A model generated the notes under the pieces. The model saw only the letters and a list, made by a program, of their open reading frames with translations. It made no database searches and had not been told where the DNA came from. Below, piece by piece: positions 1,308-11,939 of a DNA stretch of 24,809 nucleotides (the stretch's first letter is position 1; each line of letters opens with the position of its first letter). Location of the stretch: positions 1-24,809 of IMG/VR virus record IMGVR_UViG_3300007538_005839. One strand, 5' to 3'. The stretch comes from a virus. Both the position numbers and the translations under genes were made by a program.

Positions 1308-2429
1308 TTAAATTACATAAAATTGTCTTGGGAACGCTCTGTATTGGAGCGATTTATTTAATTGTTCTGCAACATTAGCCTCTCTTTCCATCATTTTTTC
1401 AGGACGTAATCTTTCTAATCTCGCAGTTAATTCTTCCATTAATTTAGATTTTTCATCTTTTGCTTCTGTTAACAATGAATCATATTCTAAAGTGACTTCT
1501 GAATCTGGCGTTTTTAAATTACCACTAAATTTACCTCTAACCCTACCTAAAGTTTCTTTAACGTAAGCAGTAAACCATCTACGTACCCATGTTTGTGCGG
1601 GTGAGTTTAGTTCTGTCCACGACATTTCATCGATTGGAATATCAGAAGGTAATTTTACAACATCAGGGTTTGCCGCTAAACAAGCTTCTCTATCATCTGT
1701 ATCGTAATACCAATACCAACATCTATACTCGTTATATTGAATATTTCCAAAATCAAATTTACCACCAGGTACGTTCATTAAATGAAGTGCTTTTTTACCA
1801 TCAGGTAATGCGGTAATTCTATATGTTAATTCACCTGAAATAATTCTTCTTTTAATATTGATGTCTTGCATTCTTAACAAGATATCAAATGCTGGTGTAA
1901 TAAAATAGTTACCCATAGTTCCCATTTGAGAGAAACCGGCTGCGCCACCTAATCCAATTCCACCAAATCCACCAAATCCACCCATAAATGGGTCAAAGAA
2001 TGCGGCATCTAATTCAGACCTTGAAAACCATAAAAGTTCGTTAACTTCACGACCTGCAGGTATTTCATAAATTTGTTGTCCTGGTACTAAATCAACATAA
2101 TCTTTTTTCAGAACCCAATCACCACCAGCTTGTAGTCCAACAATTTTAGAATATGCGTAAGTATATTGAGTTTCCCAATCTAAAGAACGAGTAGTAAATG
2201 CTCTTGTTAGTGATTGTTCATCAAGATTCATTCCGTACAAGGAAGTCCACTGATTTTCAATCAACCAATCATTAACATATTGTGCGTAGTCCTGAATTGA
2301 TAATTCCAAAAGGGAATCCATCATTTCGTCTTCAATTTCTACACTTCTAATTGGTGCACCCAAAAGGTGTCTAATACGAGTGTATAATTTACTTCTATCC
2401 GGTTCTTTGATGATATTAGTTACAGCCAT
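1308..2429 (-). CDS. Putative gp13-like neck protein (head-tail connector)
   Basis: 373 residues. The N-terminus has the pattern of T4 gp13-type neck proteins: a short basic helix, then LLGAP (22-26) and VEIEDE (30-35) leading into an amphipathic helix (MMDSLLELSIQDYAQY). In T4, gp13 and gp14 form the collar complex that closes the filled head and docks the tail. A Gly/Phe-rich loop (about 149-170, GGFGGFGGIGLGG) interrupts the middle; the C-terminal third is charged and likely helical (about 320-360). The gene sits two bases upstream of the 102-aa gene and 38 bases after the SOD fusion gene. The late-promoter-like octamer precedes it at 2441-2448. T4 gp13 is about 309 residues, so this version is longer. 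The gp13 assignment rests on the N-terminal motif and neighbourhood; a generic connector is the alternative. Confidence 0.55.
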   Translation of the reverse strand: MAVTNIIKEPDRSKLYTRIRHLLGAPIRSVEIEDEMMDSLLELSIQDYAQYVNDWLIENQWTSLYGMNLDEQSLTRAFTTRSLDWETQYTYAYSKIVGLQAGGDWVLKKDYVDLVPGQQIYEIPAGREVNELLWFSRSELDAAFFDPFMGGFGGFGGIGLGGAAGFSQMGTMGNYFITPAFDILLRMQDINIKRRIISGELTYRITALPDGKKALHLMNVPGGKFDFGNIQYNEYRCWYWYYDTDDREACLAANPDVVKLPSDIPIDEMSWTELNSPAQTWVRRWFTAYVKETLGRVRGKFSGNLKTPDSEVTLEYDSLLTEAKDEKSKLMEELTARLERLRPEKMMEREANVAEQLNKSLQYRAFPRQFYVI

Positions 2430-2467: not shown

Positions 2468-4030
2468 TTAATTGATTCTATCATCAACACTGAACACGTA
2501 CCTTCCATCAACAATTTCGGCGTTGTTTTTGAACACAACTGTACCATCTTTATCATTATGAAATACTAAATAATCTGTTTTGTATGGTTTAACATTACCA
2601 CTACCAAATACAGTTACTTTGCCATCTTCTTCTTTAATATCATTAAATGGTTTAATCTGCATTGTTTTTTTACCTTCAGGAGTTTCAACATATGCGTCAA
2701 TACCACCTAACATATCATCAACACCACCTAATTCTCCTACTTTAAAAACTTCTTGAGTTCCAAAAATATCTTTTAGGTTTACTACTGCATTTATTTCTCT
2801 CTTATCTCCAAATTTATTGGACCTATCTAATCCTGACATAATTGTTTGGAATGTACTTGATTCAGGATTAAAAATCCTATATCGTAATTCCGTCATGTAC
2901 CTAATCAATCTATCTGTTTCGGATAACTGTTGTTGTTCGTTTTGACCAATATAATTGATTGGATTTATACCAACTTTTTTTAAGTATTGGTTTATATCAT
3001 TAGTTAATGTACAAAATGCAGTGTAATTAGTGTTTAACTTATTAATTACAGAACGACCTGGTTGTTCATAGTCGTATATTCCTGACATTTGACCTGATGC
3101 ATATTCATTCTTTTCAAACCAATAATCGGCAAATACTTCTTTTAATATATCCATAATTGCAAACATAAATTTCTTTTTAACCTGTGGATTTCGGTTAAAT
3201 ATCATTCTATATGTGTTAACTTGTTTTGCATTACATCCTGCAGAAACACCCTCATTAATTACTTGTTGAATAAACTTTCCTTCTTTAACTTTGTCTTTTG
3301 TTCTACCTAAATAAAGTTTATTAACAAAAGGCCAGTTAATTACTTTCCAAAAATTCTCAACGTATTCGTCTCTTCGATTCCTGTATTTCAAGTAATATGC
3401 GTGCTCCCAAAGGTCTAAACCAAGTATAGGGTAACCGCCAAACTTTACTGTGTTCATCAACGGGTTGTCTTGATTGGATGTGGTCATAATCTTTAACTTA
3501 TCGTTGTTAGTTACCACTAACCAAACCCATCCAGAGCCAAATTTAGATTTAGCTTTCTTTTCAAATTCTTTTTTAAAATCCTCGTATGTACCAAATTCTT
3601 CTTTAATTTTTCTAAGTATAGGACCATATACACGAGTATTTTTTGGTGTTAACATCTTCCAAAACAGTGCGTGGTTAAATGCACCGCCAGCATTATCTTT
3701 AATACTATTATTAAATCTACTTATACCTTTTACAATTTGTTCTAAGTCCAAATCAGGACCTTTTCTTTTTTCAATTGCCTTATTTAACTTGTCTACATAC
3801 CCCTTGTAATGTTTATTGTAATGTACATACATTGTCTCTTTGTCGATGAATGTATCTAAGGCAGAATAGGAGTATGGTAATTTTTCAATACCAATTTTTT
3901 TCATTTCTAATAAAATTTCTTTGCGTGATTTTTCCGTTACAGATTCTTTAATCGTATTGTTATCTGCAACATTTTTGTTGATTTGTTCTTCGAGTTCTTT
4001 AACTCTTTGTTTTAGTTTTTTGAAACCCAT
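2468..4030 (-). CDS. Mn-type superoxide dismutase fused to PD-(D/E)XK-like domain
   Basis: 520 residues in three parts. (1) 1-45: charged, coiled-coil-like leader. (2) About 46-240: complete iron/manganese superoxide dismutase domain, which converts superoxide to peroxide and oxygen. All four metal ligands are recognisable: His70 (YVHYNKHYKGY), His120 (FNHALFWKML), Asp206 and His210 (PILGLDLWEHAYYLKY). DNAGG (112-116) and Gln187 (NQDNPL) are the Mn-type choices at positions that separate Mn from Fe enzymes. (3) About 241-520: extra C-terminal region, helical first, then GGIDAYV (Asp445), TMQIK (Gln458, Lys460) and an upstream Glu412, the D...(E/Q)xK layout of PD-(D/E)XK nucleases. Standalone Fe/Mn SODs are about 200 residues, so the fusion more than doubles the length. 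It lies between helicase and neck genes with its own octamer at 4044-4051, which suggests late expression. SOD identity is near certain; the nuclease-like call is moderate. Confidence 0.9.
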   Translation of the reverse strand: MGFKKLKQRVKELEEQINKNVADNNTIKESVTEKSRKEILLEMKKIGIEKLPYSYSALDTFIDKETMYVHYNKHYKGYVDKLNKAIEKRKGPDLDLEQIVKGISRFNNSIKDNAGGAFNHALFWKMLTPKNTRVYGPILRKIKEEFGTYEDFKKEFEKKAKSKFGSGWVWLVVTNNDKLKIMTTSNQDNPLMNTVKFGGYPILGLDLWEHAYYLKYRNRRDEYVENFWKVINWPFVNKLYLGRTKDKVKEGKFIQQVINEGVSAGCNAKQVNTYRMIFNRNPQVKKKFMFAIMDILKEVFADYWFEKNEYASGQMSGIYDYEQPGRSVINKLNTNYTAFCTLTNDINQYLKKVGINPINYIGQNEQQQLSETDRLIRYMTELRYRIFNPESSTFQTIMSGLDRSNKFGDKREINAVVNLKDIFGTQEVFKVGELGGVDDMLGGIDAYVETPEGKKTMQIKPFNDIKEEDGKVTVFGSGNVKPYKTDYLVFHNDKDGTVVFKNNAEIVDGRYVFSVDDRIN

Positions 4031-4070: not shown

Positions 4071-5837
4071 TTATTTTCTTCTTTGTGAAATCTCATTTAA
4101 TATTTCTTCTAGAGTATCACCTTTACCTTCGTTGTCACCCATTACAGTTTCAAAAATATTCTTCTTCTTTGATAGGATATCATAGATAACACCTTCGATT
4201 GTGTTTTCAAATATTGGGTAGAATATAGATACGTTTGATTTTTGTCCATATCTATAGGCTCGGTCTTCTGCTTGTGCGTGGTCAGAAGGTACAAATGATA
4301 AGTCGTTCATAATGGCAGCTTCTGCAGATGTTAAGGTGATACCAACACCCGCAGCTTTTAAGTTACCAACGAACACTTTTATTTTATCGTTCTCTTGGAA
4401 TTGGTCAACCGAATGTTGACGGGCAGGTTTAGACATACTACCATCTAAAGTTACTGCGGCTTTCCCAAAATGTTCTTTTATCATATTCAGTGTGTTTGTA
4501 AAGTTTGTGAATATGATAACTTTTTTACCTTGTTCAATTATGTTTTCTGCAAGTTCACAAGTTTCTTTTACCTTATTTTCGGCAATTACTTGTCTAACTT
4601 TCATTAACTTTGAAAATTGAACGGTCAATGATGATGATTCATCTGATTGTTCATACCAGTCATAATATTCACCCATTAGTTGTTCATAATCGCGAGATTT
4701 TAATCTCAAATAAACAGGTGTAATAATTTTGTCAGGTAAATCTAATATGTCTTCTTTTAATCTTCTAAGTACATGAGTTTTGGTACGGTCTCTTAGTTCT
4801 TCAAGATTGTCAGCCCCTTGAACGTTCCATACTTTTCGTTTACCAACAGTGAACTGATATCCATTACAATATCTTTTTACATATGCCATCCAATTGTAAG
4901 CGACGGGACTATCAACAAGATTAAGAAGGTTGTAGTAGTTCATCGGTCTTGATGTCATCGGAGTACCTGTTAGTAACCATACCCGACCAATTTTCTTACA
5001 AACATCATTAACAATCTTTGTTCTTTGTGCTTGTGCGTTTTGAATGTAGTGAGCTTCATCGACAACAACCAAATCAAAACCTTCATTTAAAATTTTTGAT
5101 TCGTCAGGTAGTTTTGAATCGTGAAAGTTTTTAAGGATATCATAGTTGATAATCATATAGTCGGCACTTTCCCAATTTTTACCTTCGATGATTGAAATTG
5201 TTTTATCTGTGTAATTTTGTATTTCCCTCATCCAGTTAATCTTAAGTGATGCGGGACAAATAATTAAAACTTTTTCGGATTTTGATTCTAATGTACCTAT
5301 AACGGTTGATGTTGTTTTACCCAAACCCATGTCATCTGCAAGGATGTATTTGTCATTAGCCACCAACTTTTCAATTGCTTCTTTTTGGTGTTCCAACGGA
5401 GGTCGATTAGAATACTTTGAATAATCTATTTCAACTTTATTTTCTTTCTTTCCTATAATTGCGGCTTTTGGTAACCAAAAATCATAAAATTCTTCGGATT
5501 CAAATAGTCGACCCCAAATATGAAATGCTTTATCTTTTTCAACTAAAAGTTTTTCAATATAAATCTTTTCAGGTTCTTTTGTTAATAGTTTGTCTTCCAT
5601 CATTCTTTTTGAAAAATAAGAATCCAATGGAACCCATCTTCTTGCTAGTTTTGGAACAACATCTTTATAGTTGTTTATGTAGTCAGCTTGTGCTCTTGTA
5701 ATCTTGAAATTTTTGGAATTTTCTTTCTTCTTTTTTATTGCAAGAATATAGTTATTAAAACCTTCGTATTCTTCAAGAACACGCATGGCTTTAATTTCAG
5801 GTATGTTAGAAATTGTATTGTTGTTTTCTTGCATCAT
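4071..5837 (-). CDS. SNF2-family DNA helicase/translocase
   Basis: 588 residues from the chosen start. Superfamily 2 motifs are clear (numbered from this start): Walker A DDMGLGKT (168-175), DEAH box (260-263), motif III LTGTP (289-293), motif V region GVGITLTSAEAA, and motif VI QAEDRAYRYGQ with its arginines (526-532). The D-D-M-G-L-G-K-T and A-x-R-x-x-R-x-G-Q versions are typical of SNF2 proteins, nearest in style to the SMARCAL1-like branch, which remodels or anneals DNA rather than unwinding it processively. The ~140 residues before the core match nothing I recognise. In T4, UvsW (587 aa) is the SF2 enzyme for fork regression and recombination; this protein may fill that role. Start: an upstream in-frame TTG at 5861 would add eight residues, but two consecutive ATGs (5837, 5834) are more likely. 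It is divergent from the gp14-like gene. Confidence 0.88.
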   Translation of the reverse strand: MMQENNNTISNIPEIKAMRVLEEYEGFNNYILAIKKKKENSKNFKITRAQADYINNYKDVVPKLARRWVPLDSYFSKRMMEDKLLTKEPEKIYIEKLLVEKDKAFHIWGRLFESEEFYDFWLPKAAIIGKKENKVEIDYSKYSNRPPLEHQKEAIEKLVANDKYILADDMGLGKTTSTVIGTLESKSEKVLIICPASLKINWMREIQNYTDKTISIIEGKNWESADYMIINYDILKNFHDSKLPDESKILNEGFDLVVVDEAHYIQNAQAQRTKIVNDVCKKIGRVWLLTGTPMTSRPMNYYNLLNLVDSPVAYNWMAYVKRYCNGYQFTVGKRKVWNVQGADNLEELRDRTKTHVLRRLKEDILDLPDKIITPVYLRLKSRDYEQLMGEYYDWYEQSDESSSLTVQFSKLMKVRQVIAENKVKETCELAENIIEQGKKVIIFTNFTNTLNMIKEHFGKAAVTLDGSMSKPARQHSVDQFQENDKIKVFVGNLKAAGVGITLTSAEAAIMNDLSFVPSDHAQAEDRAYRYGQKSNVSIFYPIFENTIEGVIYDILSKKKNIFETVMGDNEGKGDTLEEILNEISQRRK

Positions 5838-5869
5838 AGAAATAAATTTAAATATAATCAAAAATCAAA

Positions 5870-7715: not shown

Positions 7716-10700
7716 ATGGCAACATCAAACAAAGTATTCGTTTCTCCTGGTGTATATACCTCTGAAAGAGACCTAAGTTTCGTAGCTCAGAGCGTAGGTG
7801 TAACTACATTGGGTATTGTTGGAGAAACCCTTCAGGGTCCAGCATTCGAACCAATTTTCATCACAAACTTCGATGAATTTCAAACGTATTTCGGTCCTAC
7901 ATCACCGGAAAAATTTGTAAATACTCAGATTCCAAAATATGAGGCAGCTTACATCGCTAAAGCTTATTTACAACAGTCAAATCAATTATTCGTAACAAGA
8001 GTTTTGGGTCTTAATGGTTACGATGCGGGTCCATCGTGGTCCATAACAACAATAGCAAATGTTGACCAAACAACCGTTGGTGTAACAGGAAATACAGGAC
8101 CTGAAATTTTATTATTCTCAGGTAATACAAATGGAACATTTAGTTTTACAGTTCCTTCAACACTAACAACTAATTTTGCATTACCATATACAACATTTAA
8201 TGGAGGTACATCAAGTATTAGACAAGATTTTGTTACATACTTAACATCTGTATTAAATGCTCCACATAGCTCGGGTGGTACTGCATATTTTTGGGGTACT
8301 GTTAGTGATAGTTCATATACTGATATAACAAGTATTAATGGTGGTTATAGTGCTGACACTGAAACTTTTGGAGTTTCAGGTATTACTGAATCTACTGCGG
8401 ATTATACAAGTCCTAATGATGACCCTTGGTATTATGCATTATTTAATAACTACGGAGGTAATCACTACTATGGTTTCTCTTTTGGTGGTATGGTTAAAAC
8501 ATTAAATAATGATGGTGGTGGAGCGTTTTCAGGTTCTGTTAATCTTTACTATTCAAAATATTCAGGTACATCGTACACAGATTATGATGATGTTGTAGTT
8601 GCAACTCTTCGTTCACGTGGTGTTACAACTGACACTTCAGGTGGTCCTGTTTATACTGTTACAGGTACAAGTGATGTACAATTAGTCACAACAGGAGCAT
8701 ATTCAGGTATTAGTACAAACCCTAAATTAACATTCCAAGTTTCGGGTGTTACAAGTAGTGGTGATGACTTTACATTTGATACATCATTCGATAGTTCAGC
8801 AACAAATTATATCAGTAAGGTATTTGGAAAGGGTAACTTCTCTAAACCAAGAACTGAAGTTCCTATCTTCTTAGAAGAAGTTTTCCAAACAACTTTGAAT
8901 GATTCATATAATAATGGTTACATTAGAGGTATTAACTCGTCATTAATTGCTTTACCACAATCAAGAGGATTGGATACGACTTCAATTGGTTGGTATTTAA
9001 ATAATTATCAAACACCTGAAACACCATATGTAGTTTCAGAACTTCGTGGTAATACTGTTTACAGATTATTTAAGTTTATCTTAATCTCTGACGGTAGTGC
9101 AGCAAACAGACAAGTTAAAGTTTCTATAGCTAACATGCAGTTTAGTAATGAAACATTTGACATTATTGTTCGTGATTTCTTTGATACGGATTCAAATCCT
9201 GTAGTATTGGAGAAGTTTACAAACTGTACAATGAACCCAACACAAAACTCATATGTAGCACAAAGAGTAGGTACTGCTAATGGTGAGTATGAATTAAAAT
9301 CAAGATTTATAATGGTTGAAATGGATGAAGACCATCCTGATGACGCACTTCCTTGTGGATTTGAAGGTTATAACTTCAGAGAATACTCAGGTGCTAAAAA
9401 TCCATTCCCTGTTTATAAAACAAAATATAACAATCCTGGTGATATCATCTATAACCCACCATTTGGTACAACAACAGGTTCTGACAACGTAGTTAGAAGT
9501 GCTGGTGATAGAGTTAGAAAAACTTACTTAGGTTTCTCATCTACAGTTGGTATTGACCCTGATTTCTTTGAGTATAAAGGTAAACAAGTTCCAACATCTT
9601 CAGACGGTGAAGGTACAAATTGGCCAGTAATGACCAAAGGTTTCCACATGGACTCAGGAGCAACTGTTGTAACAATTTCAGGTGGATTTACATCTTCAGG
9701 TACATCAGCTTTTGATGTAGGTGATGCATCATTCCAATCTGACCCACAAAACAATACTAACCCATACTATTCATTAGCAGCTAGAAAGTTCACTTTATTA
9801 GCTCAAGGTGGTTTTGACGGATGGGATATCTACAGAGAATATCGTACAAACGGTGATTCATTCTCGTTAGGTAATACAGGTTTCTTGAAAGGTAACAGTT
9901 CAACTTCAATTACTTATCCAGGTTCTACAGGTTGGGGTTACTTTAAACCAATCACAGGTCCTGACCAACAACAATGGGCAAACACTGACTACTACGCATA
10001 CTTGTGGGGTCAAACAACATTCTCTAATCCTGAGTCAGTAAACATTAACGTGTTTACAACACCAGGTATTGATTTTGTTAATAACGCTTCGTTAGTAAAT
10101 GATGCAATTGATATTGTTGAGACAGACAGAGCAGATTCAATTTATGTATTGACTGCACCTGACTACGATATGTTCTCACCAAACACTGCGGATTTCGAAA
10201 CTCAGTTTATCTATCCTGAAGAGTTGGTTGACTTGTTAAATGATTCAGGAATTGACTCTAACTACAGTGCAACTTACTATCCTTGGATTTTGACAAGAGA
10301 TACTTCAAACAATACTCAAATCTACTTACCACCAACAGGTGAAGTAGTTAGAAACTTGGCATTGACTGATAACATTGCATTCCCTTGGTTCGCATCTGCG
10401 GGTTACACAAGAGGTATTGTAAATGCAGTTAAAGCACGTAAGAAGTTAACTCAAGATGATAGAGATACTCTTTACAAAGGTAGAATCAACCCAATCGCAA
10501 CATTCTCAGATGTAGGAACAGTAATTTGGGGTAACAAAACCCTTCAAATTAAAGAATCTGCACTTGACAGAATCAACGTTAGAAGATTGTTACTACAAGC
10601 TCGTAAGTTGATTTCAGCAGTTGCGGTTAGATTGTTGTTCGAACAAAACGATGAGAAAGTAAGACAACAGTTCTTGGATTCAGTTAACCCAATCTTGGAT

Positions 10701-10877
10701 TCAATCCGTAGAGATAGAGGTTTGATTGACTTCCGTGTAACAGTATCAAACACTCCTGAAGATTTAGATTCAAATACCCTAACAGGTAAGATTTATCTAA
10801 AACCAACAAGAGCTCTTGAATTCATCGATATCGAATTCTTGATTACTCCAACAGGAGCATCATTCGAAAATATCTAA
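7716..10877 (+). CDS. Tail sheath protein (gp18-like), enlarged
   Basis: 1053 residues. The start (FVSPGVYTSERDL, then GIVGETLQGPAFEP and a FDEFQTYFG segment) is the classic opening of contractile sheath proteins, where PGVY and the G-P-A-x-x-P loop form the inter-subunit strand network. The end (about 899-1053) contains GIVNAVKARKKLTQDDRDTLY, then RINPIATFSDVGTVIWGNKT, INVRRLLLQARKLI and a closing YLKPTRALEFIDIEFLI; this C-terminal domain faces the tube and carries contraction contacts. T4 gp18 is 659 residues; the extra ~400 lie in the Ser/Thr/Gly-rich middle (about 110-800), consistent with surface-exposed insertion domains. The octamer at 7675 and the terminator at 10896-10923 make it a self-contained high-output unit. 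Identity is secure. Confidence 0.95.
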   Translation: MATSNKVFVSPGVYTSERDLSFVAQSVGVTTLGIVGETLQGPAFEPIFITNFDEFQTYFGPTSPEKFVNTQIPKYEAAYIAKAYLQQSNQLFVTRVLGLNGYDAGPSWSITTIANVDQTTVGVTGNTGPEILLFSGNTNGTFSFTVPSTLTTNFALPYTTFNGGTSSIRQDFVTYLTSVLNAPHSSGGTAYFWGTVSDSSYTDITSINGGYSADTETFGVSGITESTADYTSPNDDPWYYALFNNYGGNHYYGFSFGGMVKTLNNDGGGAFSGSVNLYYSKYSGTSYTDYDDVVVATLRSRGVTTDTSGGPVYTVTGTSDVQLVTTGAYSGISTNPKLTFQVSGVTSSGDDFTFDTSFDSSATNYISKVFGKGNFSKPRTEVPIFLEEVFQTTLNDSYNNGYIRGINSSLIALPQSRGLDTTSIGWYLNNYQTPETPYVVSELRGNTVYRLFKFILISDGSAANRQVKVSIANMQFSNETFDIIVRDFFDTDSNPVVLEKFTNCTMNPTQNSYVAQRVGTANGEYELKSRFIMVEMDEDHPDDALPCGFEGYNFREYSGAKNPFPVYKTKYNNPGDIIYNPPFGTTTGSDNVVRSAGDRVRKTYLGFSSTVGIDPDFFEYKGKQVPTSSDGEGTNWPVMTKGFHMDSGATVVTISGGFTSSGTSAFDVGDASFQSDPQNNTNPYYSLAARKFTLLAQGGFDGWDIYREYRTNGDSFSLGNTGFLKGNSSTSITYPGSTGWGYFKPITGPDQQQWANTDYYAYLWGQTTFSNPESVNINVFTTPGIDFVNNASLVNDAIDIVETDRADSIYVLTAPDYDMFSPNTADFETQFIYPEELVDLLNDSGIDSNYSATYYPWILTRDTSNNTQIYLPPTGEVVRNLALTDNIAFPWFASAGYTRGIVNAVKARKKLTQDDRDTLYKGRINPIATFSDVGTVIWGNKTLQIKESALDRINVRRLLLQARKLISAVAVRLLFEQNDEKVRQQFLDSVNPILDSIRRDRGLIDFRVTVSNTPEDLDSNTLTGKIYLKPTRALEFIDIEFLITPTGASFENI

Positions 10878-10944: not shown

Positions 10945-11091
10945 ATGGAATTTAATAAAAAAACATTAAGTGAAGCTTTAAACTTACAAAGTTCAGAAAA
11001 GAAAACATTTTCTGAAAAACCACAAAGTATTGTTGTTTCTGAAGAACAATTAGAAAGATTAATTTCAAAAGTATCTAAAGAGAAAAAATGA
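10945..11091 (+). CDS. 48-aa protein of unknown function, coupled to HAD gene
   Basis: ATG 10945 opens MEFNKKTLSEALNLQSSEKK, and the ORF ends SEEQLERLISKVSKEKK. It is highly charged and probably helical, with no recognised family. The stop TGA overlaps the next gene's ATG in ATGA (11088-11091), a standard arrangement for translational coupling, which is the main reason to call it real. It lies just after the sheath terminator with no clear promoter octamer of its own, so it may be read by read-through. Confidence 0.6.
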   Translation: MEFNKKTLSEALNLQSSEKKTFSEKPQSIVVSEEQLERLISKVSKEKK

Positions 11092-11939
11092 ATTTAAAAC
11101 GTATTATAAAGGAATTTGCTGAAGAAAAACAACTTCGTGAGGGGTTTGATGAAGCAGGTAATCCCGATATGAAGTATTATGCTTTTGACTGGGATGATAA
11201 CATTGTTACAATGCCAACACAGATTATTCTTATTGATGATAAGGATGAAGAAGTGGGTATGAGTACTGAAGATTTTGCTGAATACAGAGAACAAATAGGA
11301 AAAGAACCTTTTGATTATAAAGGACACAACGTTGTAGGTTATGCATCTGACCCTTATAGGAATTTTGGGGTTAAGGGTGACAAAGCATTTATCGTGGATG
11401 CTATGATGGCAAAAACGGGTCCTTCATGGAATGATTTTGTTGAGGCAATAAACGGGGGGTCTATTTTTGCGATAATCACTGCGAGGGGTCACAACCCTAA
11501 CACATTAAGAGAAGCGGTTTATAATATGATTGTAACCGACCACAATGGGATAAGTAAGTCATCATTATTGGACAACTTAAAAAAGTATCGTGAATATTTT
11601 GACGACACAAAAATGAGTGACAAAGAAATGATTGATTTTTATTTGGACTTAGCTAAATTCCATCCTGTAACTTACGGGGAGGGTAGTGCTGCCAATCCTG
11701 AGGAGGGTAAGATTGTTGCTTTAAGAAACTTTATACAATATGTTAAAGAGATGTCTGATACGGTTGGACAAAAAGCGTACCTTAAAAATGACATTAAAAA
11801 CAACTTTGTACCAAATATAGGATTTTCTGATGATGATTCTAGAAATATTGAGAAAATTAAAGATTTCCTAGATGCAGAAGATAAAGATAAACTAGTTAAA
11901 ACATATTTAACAAAAGGAGGAGAAAAACAAGAAGTTTAA
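11088..11939 (+). CDS. HAD-superfamily hydrolase (putative phosphatase)
   Basis: 283 residues. HAD motifs can be followed: motif I YAFDWDDNIV with nucleophile Asp34 and acid/base Asp36; motif II FAIITARGHNP with Thr131; candidate motif III Lys208 (EEGKIVALRNFI); motif IV IGFSDDDSRNIEKI with Asp248-Asp250. These residues bind magnesium and carry out aspartyl-phosphate chemistry on phosphate esters. The fourth residue after the nucleophile is Asn38 rather than the common Thr/Val. Inserts at about 40-120 and 150-205 supply a cap that would set the substrate. T4 Pnkp has a HAD 3'-phosphatase domain, but no kinase domain is seen here and the substrate cannot be told. It sits between sheath and tube genes, two virion proteins with which it has no known link, and is coupled to the 48-aa ORF. 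Confidence 0.75.
   Translation: MNLKRIIKEFAEEKQLREGFDEAGNPDMKYYAFDWDDNIVTMPTQIILIDDKDEEVGMSTEDFAEYREQIGKEPFDYKGHNVVGYASDPYRNFGVKGDKAFIVDAMMAKTGPSWNDFVEAINGGSIFAIITARGHNPNTLREAVYNMIVTDHNGISKSSLLDNLKKYREYFDDTKMSDKEMIDFYLDLAKFHPVTYGEGSAANPEEGKIVALRNFIQYVKEMSDTVGQKAYLKNDIKNNFVPNIGFSDDDSRNIEKIKDFLDAEDKDKLVKTYLTKGGEKQEV

Follow-up and report, generated by a model that had tools for sequence, protein, structure and literature searches.

Phages inject enzymes and anti-restriction proteins into their hosts. Among the closest described systems to the protein analysed here are the internal proteins IPI-III and Alt of phage T4, which carry a capsid-targeting propeptide, are cleaved by gp21 at L/I-X-E and are ejected. 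The prohead protease gp21 cuts after this motif (PMC9026906), and the packaging of processed proteins for ejection is known from giant phages as well as from T4 (PMC5694885, PMC3012670). Superoxide dismutases (SODs) of the Fe/Mn family are also encoded by phages. Stand-alone versions occur in PA5oct-like Pseudomonas phages and in Vibrio phage 2.275.O, and a study of Microcystis viruses names Fe/Mn SOD among the viral auxiliary genes (PMC12542629). In the literature, we found neither a report of an injected antioxidant nor one of an SOD-nuclease fusion.

The protein described here shares with the T4 internal proteins an N-terminal extension and [LI]xE motifs, and its relatives occur together with an S77 protease and a T4-like capsid. 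It differs from them in that the chain consists of two folded enzymes with candidate cleavage sites in between, as read from sequence alone. The carriers of this fusion are uncultured phages of the T4 superfamily. The gene lies on the minus strand of IMG/VR record IMGVR_UViG_3300007538_005839, of which the stretch analysed (the window) comprises positions 1 to 24,809. It spans 2471..4030 and encodes 520 amino acids, with the stop codon at 2468-2470; the open reading frame given in the earlier note (2468-4030) is exact. In the window, the gene is surrounded by tail and neck genes. As the earlier note had described, it sits between a helicase and a neck gene. Directly upstream is an SNF2/UvsW-type DNA helicase (4074..5861, minus; start codon uncertain), assigned by Pfam and PHROG searches. 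Directly downstream follows a neck or head-tail adaptor protein (1311..2429, minus; PHROG 211, 5e-12). A tblastn search of 50,697 phage records returned no relative of this neck protein, which places the lineage far from annotated phages. The octamer that had been taken as a sign of late expression, TATAAATA, does not serve this purpose. Its only copy near the gene (2437-2444, minus) lies downstream of the open reading frame, 8 bp from the start of the next gene, and the window holds no more copies than chance would give (6 seen, 4.7 expected).

The SOD domain comprises residues 46-240 (3311..3895, minus) and is recognised by Pfam, by NCBIfam and by its predicted fold. Pfam places Sod_Fe_N (PF00081) at residues 48-127 (3e-21) and Sod_Fe_C (PF02777) at 137-238 (7e-40), both far above the cut-off, and the best NCBIfam match is SOD[Mn] at 2.6e-57, below the equivalog cut-off of that model. 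The best solved match to the predicted fold is the Sphingobacterium MnSOD 6gsc (Z 27.9, rmsd 1.9, 200 residues). The metal ligands His70, His120, Asp206 and His210, together with the C-terminal Gln187, are invariant in all 77 distinct homologues. Gly116 and Gln187 are consistent with the pattern of Mn-type SODs. Gly204, two residues before the Asp ligand, is a glycine in 69 of the 77. In the scheme of PMC10172142, the combination of Gln and Gly corresponds to SodFM1/5, which mostly prefer manganese. This suggests a Mn-type Fe/Mn SOD, in which Gln187 and Gly204 point to manganese and the metal itself is not certain from sequence; the complete domain with Mn-type markers reported in the earlier note is thus recovered. 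The full fold, the four ligands, the water-coordinating Gln and the Gly two positions before the Asp are shared with SodFM1-like cellular enzymes such as those of Sphingobacterium sp. T2 and E. coli (MnSOD; PMC10172142). In contrast to these, the phage protein adds a 42-residue N-terminal extension and a 280-residue extension of linker and nuclease region, and its gene is part of a structural-gene cluster. The stand-alone phage SODs of the PA5oct-like phages and of 2.275.O are only ~27% identical to the fused domain and leave the nuclease region unmatched.

The nuclease region (residues 263-520; 2471..3244, minus) has no family match in Pfam, PHROGs or NCBIfam. A sequence profile of the C-terminal region gave nothing significant against solved structures in the PDB, and PADLOC returned no defence-system match for the whole protein. 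Sub-threshold Pfam matches, among them SHE3, ArsA and AvrM_N, were discarded as coiled-coil or chance similarity. An AlphaFold2 model of the C-terminal region, built from a 44-sequence alignment, reached a pLDDT of 88.3 and a pTM of 0.82. The nuclease region consists of a helical part with an invariant N330-x2-N333-T334-N335 block, followed by a core at about residues 400-520 that contains E412, D439, D445, Q458 and K460. In the model, strands rather than a helix follow immediately after the QxK strand; PD-(D/E)XK nucleases have the order alpha-beta3-alpha-beta, in which the third strand is followed by a helix. Foldseek against the PDB ranked the homing endonuclease I-Ssp6803I first (E 4e-3, prob 0.99), followed by NhoI and Hjc. 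VIA-align placed archaeal Hjc at the top (Z 8.1 over 99 residues), with SPARDA DREN (7.3), I-Ssp6803I, HhaI and NhoI (6.9), DpnI and PvuII as further matches; nearly all of its best 30 rows are PD-(D/E)XK nucleases, the remainder being a few tRNA-splicing endonucleases. Each single fold score is modest. Because these scores agree, and because E412, D445, Q458 and K460 are invariant in the 77 distinct fused proteins and in paralogues at 20-25% identity, we assign the last ~110 residues, as modelled, to the PD-(D/E)XK nucleases, with an E412-D445-Q458xK460 site. The PD-(D/E)XK core proposed in the earlier note is therefore present in both structure prediction and fold search, and all eight residues named there, the four SOD ligands and these four, are correctly positioned and invariant.

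A D...Q-x-K site is found in I-Ssp6803I. SPARDA DREN uses D41, Q60 and K62, which makes QxK a working variant of the nuclease site (PMC12205087). Both proteins match the last ~110 residues in fold and have this type of site in common with them. They differ in that the phage region has no sequence homology to them detectable in PDB profile searches, and in that the phage protein carries the extra helical domain and the fused SOD.

The fusion is widespread. We found 129 fused open reading frames, 77 of them distinct, in many metagenomes, all of which keep the metal ligands and the E, D, Q and K residues; this rules out an assembly error or a chance joining of two genes, the caveat that the earlier note had attached to its proposal. 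Relatives were present on 21 viral contigs when the whole protein was the query and on 37 when residues 241-520 were used, and the C-terminal profile search was examined for the best 80 of 409 related contigs. They are nearly all ~520 residues long with SOD and nuclease, and were recovered from many separate metagenomes, on contigs as long as 297 kb. The two parts are joined in 76 of 77 open reading frames in one set and in every full-length one of two others. Where looked at, the surroundings of helicase and neck genes are kept. Where measurable, dN/dS is about 0.02-0.18 in the SOD and nuclease domains, although dS approaches saturation in several of the comparisons, and the N-terminal extension is looser (0.29-0.69). 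Judged by these ratios, both domains are under purifying selection.

The statement in the earlier note that no such fusion is known holds for the names given to database entries. It does not hold for the entries themselves: a 501-residue protein of an uncultured Caudovirales phage in UniProt/BFVD (A0A6J5L953), named only "superoxide dismutase", matches the nuclease region with a TM of 0.87. A 1113-residue protein of an uncultured marine phage in BFVD (A0A8D9CCA0) carries the nuclease region as well (TM 0.79). Both are computed records, and neither name recognises the fusion. In cellular genomes, peptide-pattern scans, which detect close relatives only, found nothing related to the C-terminal region; the corresponding scan with the whole protein returned SOD-only matches in bacteria and archaea and no fusion.

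The nuclease region also occurs by itself. Nuclease-only paralogues are encoded elsewhere in the 198-kb and 297-kb relatives, several per genome. Three stand-alone copies (L137:9910-10983, L138:2604-3608 and L139:9534-10682) all retain D...QxK, and two of them belong to one 198-kb genome. A stand-alone, 290-residue relative with the E/D/Q/K site is found in a 735-kb uncultured phage (L058:14770-15639; LR756501.1), for which a peptide-pattern scan of IMG/VR gave no relatives. The C-terminal region would represent a nuclease family that is not yet listed and that some genomes carry in several copies. Conversely, at one homologous helicase-SOD-neck locus the SOD stands alone (L020:5923-6639). The protein breaks off within the linker motif (TQLKLNN), which suggests that the nuclease was lost here and that SOD alone is not the ancestral condition.

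The two domains are connected by a disordered linker (residues 241-262; 3245..3310, minus), of which residues 244-262 have a pLDDT below 50 in the predicted model. The model of the whole protein has a pTM of 0.48, so that the relative placement of the domains is uncertain. Within this otherwise highly variable linker, E250 and E260 are kept in 77 of 77 relatives. E260 lies in an [LI]-x-E context in all 42 non-redundant sequences, with eight different residues in the middle position, and E250 in an [LIV]-x-E context in 41 of the 42, again with a variable middle residue. Seven Glu columns of the alignment are well conserved, and these are two of them. A third [LI]xE-like glutamate, E371, is located within the folded nuclease region and is kept in 32 of 40 sequences. 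What is new here is that the two invariant linker glutamates lie in the cleavage motif of T4-type prohead proteases.

The N-terminal extension (residues 1-42; 3905..4030, minus), which ends in ILLE42, is absent from cellular SODs and forms low-confidence helices in the model. In most clades and most of the divergent relatives its last residues are [LI]xE, at a position that is not fixed in all clades, and it may be a propeptide or capsid-targeting sequence. Unrelated proteins of related phages begin with a common signal, for example MKKxIKLTESDLxxIIKRVLxE. N-termini of the form K-L-T-E-S-D-L-x2-I-I-K-R-V-I-x-E were seen at L138:1474-2211, L139:8258-8644, L139:12283-12564, L148:10653-10907, L146:1-1383 and others. 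We found no paper on an LTESDL N-terminal signal, and consider it a candidate capsid-targeting sequence. In 17 non-redundant SOD fusions the signal pattern matches the linker; outside the fusions it has only 5 matches in 536 open reading frames, of which 4 lie at residues 6-7 in unrelated proteins. As the pattern was composed after viewing both sets, these counts describe a likeness and are not a test.

How might these features fit together? The window is too short to contain the genes for the protease and the capsid protein, and both were read from relatives. An S77 prohead protease is present in 7 of 8 relative records and a Gp23 capsid protein in all 8. Near residue 60 of the N-terminus, the capsid proteins of the relatives contain LINE|A, which we read as a putative capsid cleavage site. 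We therefore favour a model, evenly balanced between right and wrong in our estimate, in which the protein is a head-targeted precursor that is cleaved into SOD and nuclease inside the capsid, both of which are ejected with the DNA. Here, the N-terminal extension would take the chain into the prohead. The gp21-type (S77) protease would then cleave behind [L/I]xE near residue 42 and, within the linker, at E260 and perhaps also at E250, leaving a free Mn-type SOD and a separate QxK-type PD-(D/E)XK nuclease in the capsid. At ejection, both products would leave the head together with the DNA. The SOD would remove superoxide near the incoming genome in a stressed host, and the early targets of the nuclease would be host DNA, competitor DNA or branched DNA. 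That the protein is packaged, cleaved and ejected is inferred, as are its enzymatic activity and its DNA target. The earlier suggestion of a virion or ejected protein gains support from the [L/I]xE sites in the linker and the N-terminal extension, and from the relatives that encode an S77 protease and a T4-like capsid. Its companion idea, that one product couples SOD activity to DNA processing, needs modifying: the two activities probably do not work as a single coupled enzyme, since the conserved linker motifs indicate that the chain is cut in two. Several points speak against the precursor model: [LI]xE is a short motif, the E371 glutamate inside the folded nuclease region resembles it too, the position of the N-terminal site is not the same in every clade, the linker and N-terminus pattern was composed with both sets in view, the relative placement of the domains is uncertain, and neck and helicase neighbours alone do not mark a head protein.

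The main rival to a head-targeted precursor is an uncut, bifunctional intracellular enzyme, a resolvase of Holliday junctions or branched DNA that would act beside the UvsW-type helicase in recombination and packaging, while the SOD protects replicating DNA. Hjc as the best VIA-align match and the adjacent SNF2/UvsW-type helicase gene speak for this scenario. So do searches of six relatives that found no RuvC, where the controls worked, and no endonuclease VII, where no control worked. The likeness to Hjc is, however, not specific to its family, as Hjc is near the minimal PD-(D/E)XK fold, and the phage site is QxK where Hjc has ExK. An uncut resolvase would also leave the two invariant [LI]xE glutamates of the disordered linker without explanation, and we consider it rather unlikely.

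Less probable still is a restriction- or homing-like nuclease directed against host or rival phage DNA, with the SOD simply attached and neither cleavage nor packaging of the protein involved. The Foldseek ranking of a homing (I-Ssp6803I) and a restriction enzyme (NhoI), a weak RE_MjaI match over the motif of one stand-alone paralogue (E 0.01) and the genomes with several paralogues fit such a nuclease. The intact fusion in nearly all relatives and its helicase-neck setting, maintained where looked at, do not, and no intron or methylase partner was seen within the window; the linker motifs, too, are not accounted for. If the nuclease fold were instead a non-catalytic module that binds DNA or the head and anchors the SOD on packaged DNA against superoxide, this would explain why the domain exceeds the catalytic core and contains the invariant helical N-x2-NTN block. 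A dead enzyme would not need E412, D445, Q458 and K460, whose invariance extends to the paralogues, and such an anchor is the least likely of these scenarios, with only a slim chance of being correct.

Returning to the head-targeted precursor, a more specific version is that each virion injects ready-made SOD and DNase, split from the precursor by the head protease, and that the linker is a second, built-in signal for capsid targeting and cleavage, a remnant of a fusion between two head-targeted proteins. We regard this version as tenable, at somewhat less than even confidence. If this holds, phages would be under selection from oxidative stress as their DNA enters the cell, and would counter it with proteins carried in the virion. 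With the [LI]xE sites and the N-terminal signal, head cargo could then be listed from sequence alone across a large group of uncultured T4-like phages.

Two further genes of the window are of note. The tail sheath (7716-10874, plus) is unusually long at 1053 residues, and known sheaths match mostly its C-terminal third. Its relatives hint weakly at phages of Flavobacterium or Microcystis. Between the sheath and tube genes, a 283-residue protein (11088-11936, plus) without a Pfam family above the cut-off contains the motif FDWDDNIV, which is HAD-like by eye. The motif is preceded by an N-terminal extension with IKE and LRE, and the protein may be another head-targeted enzyme.
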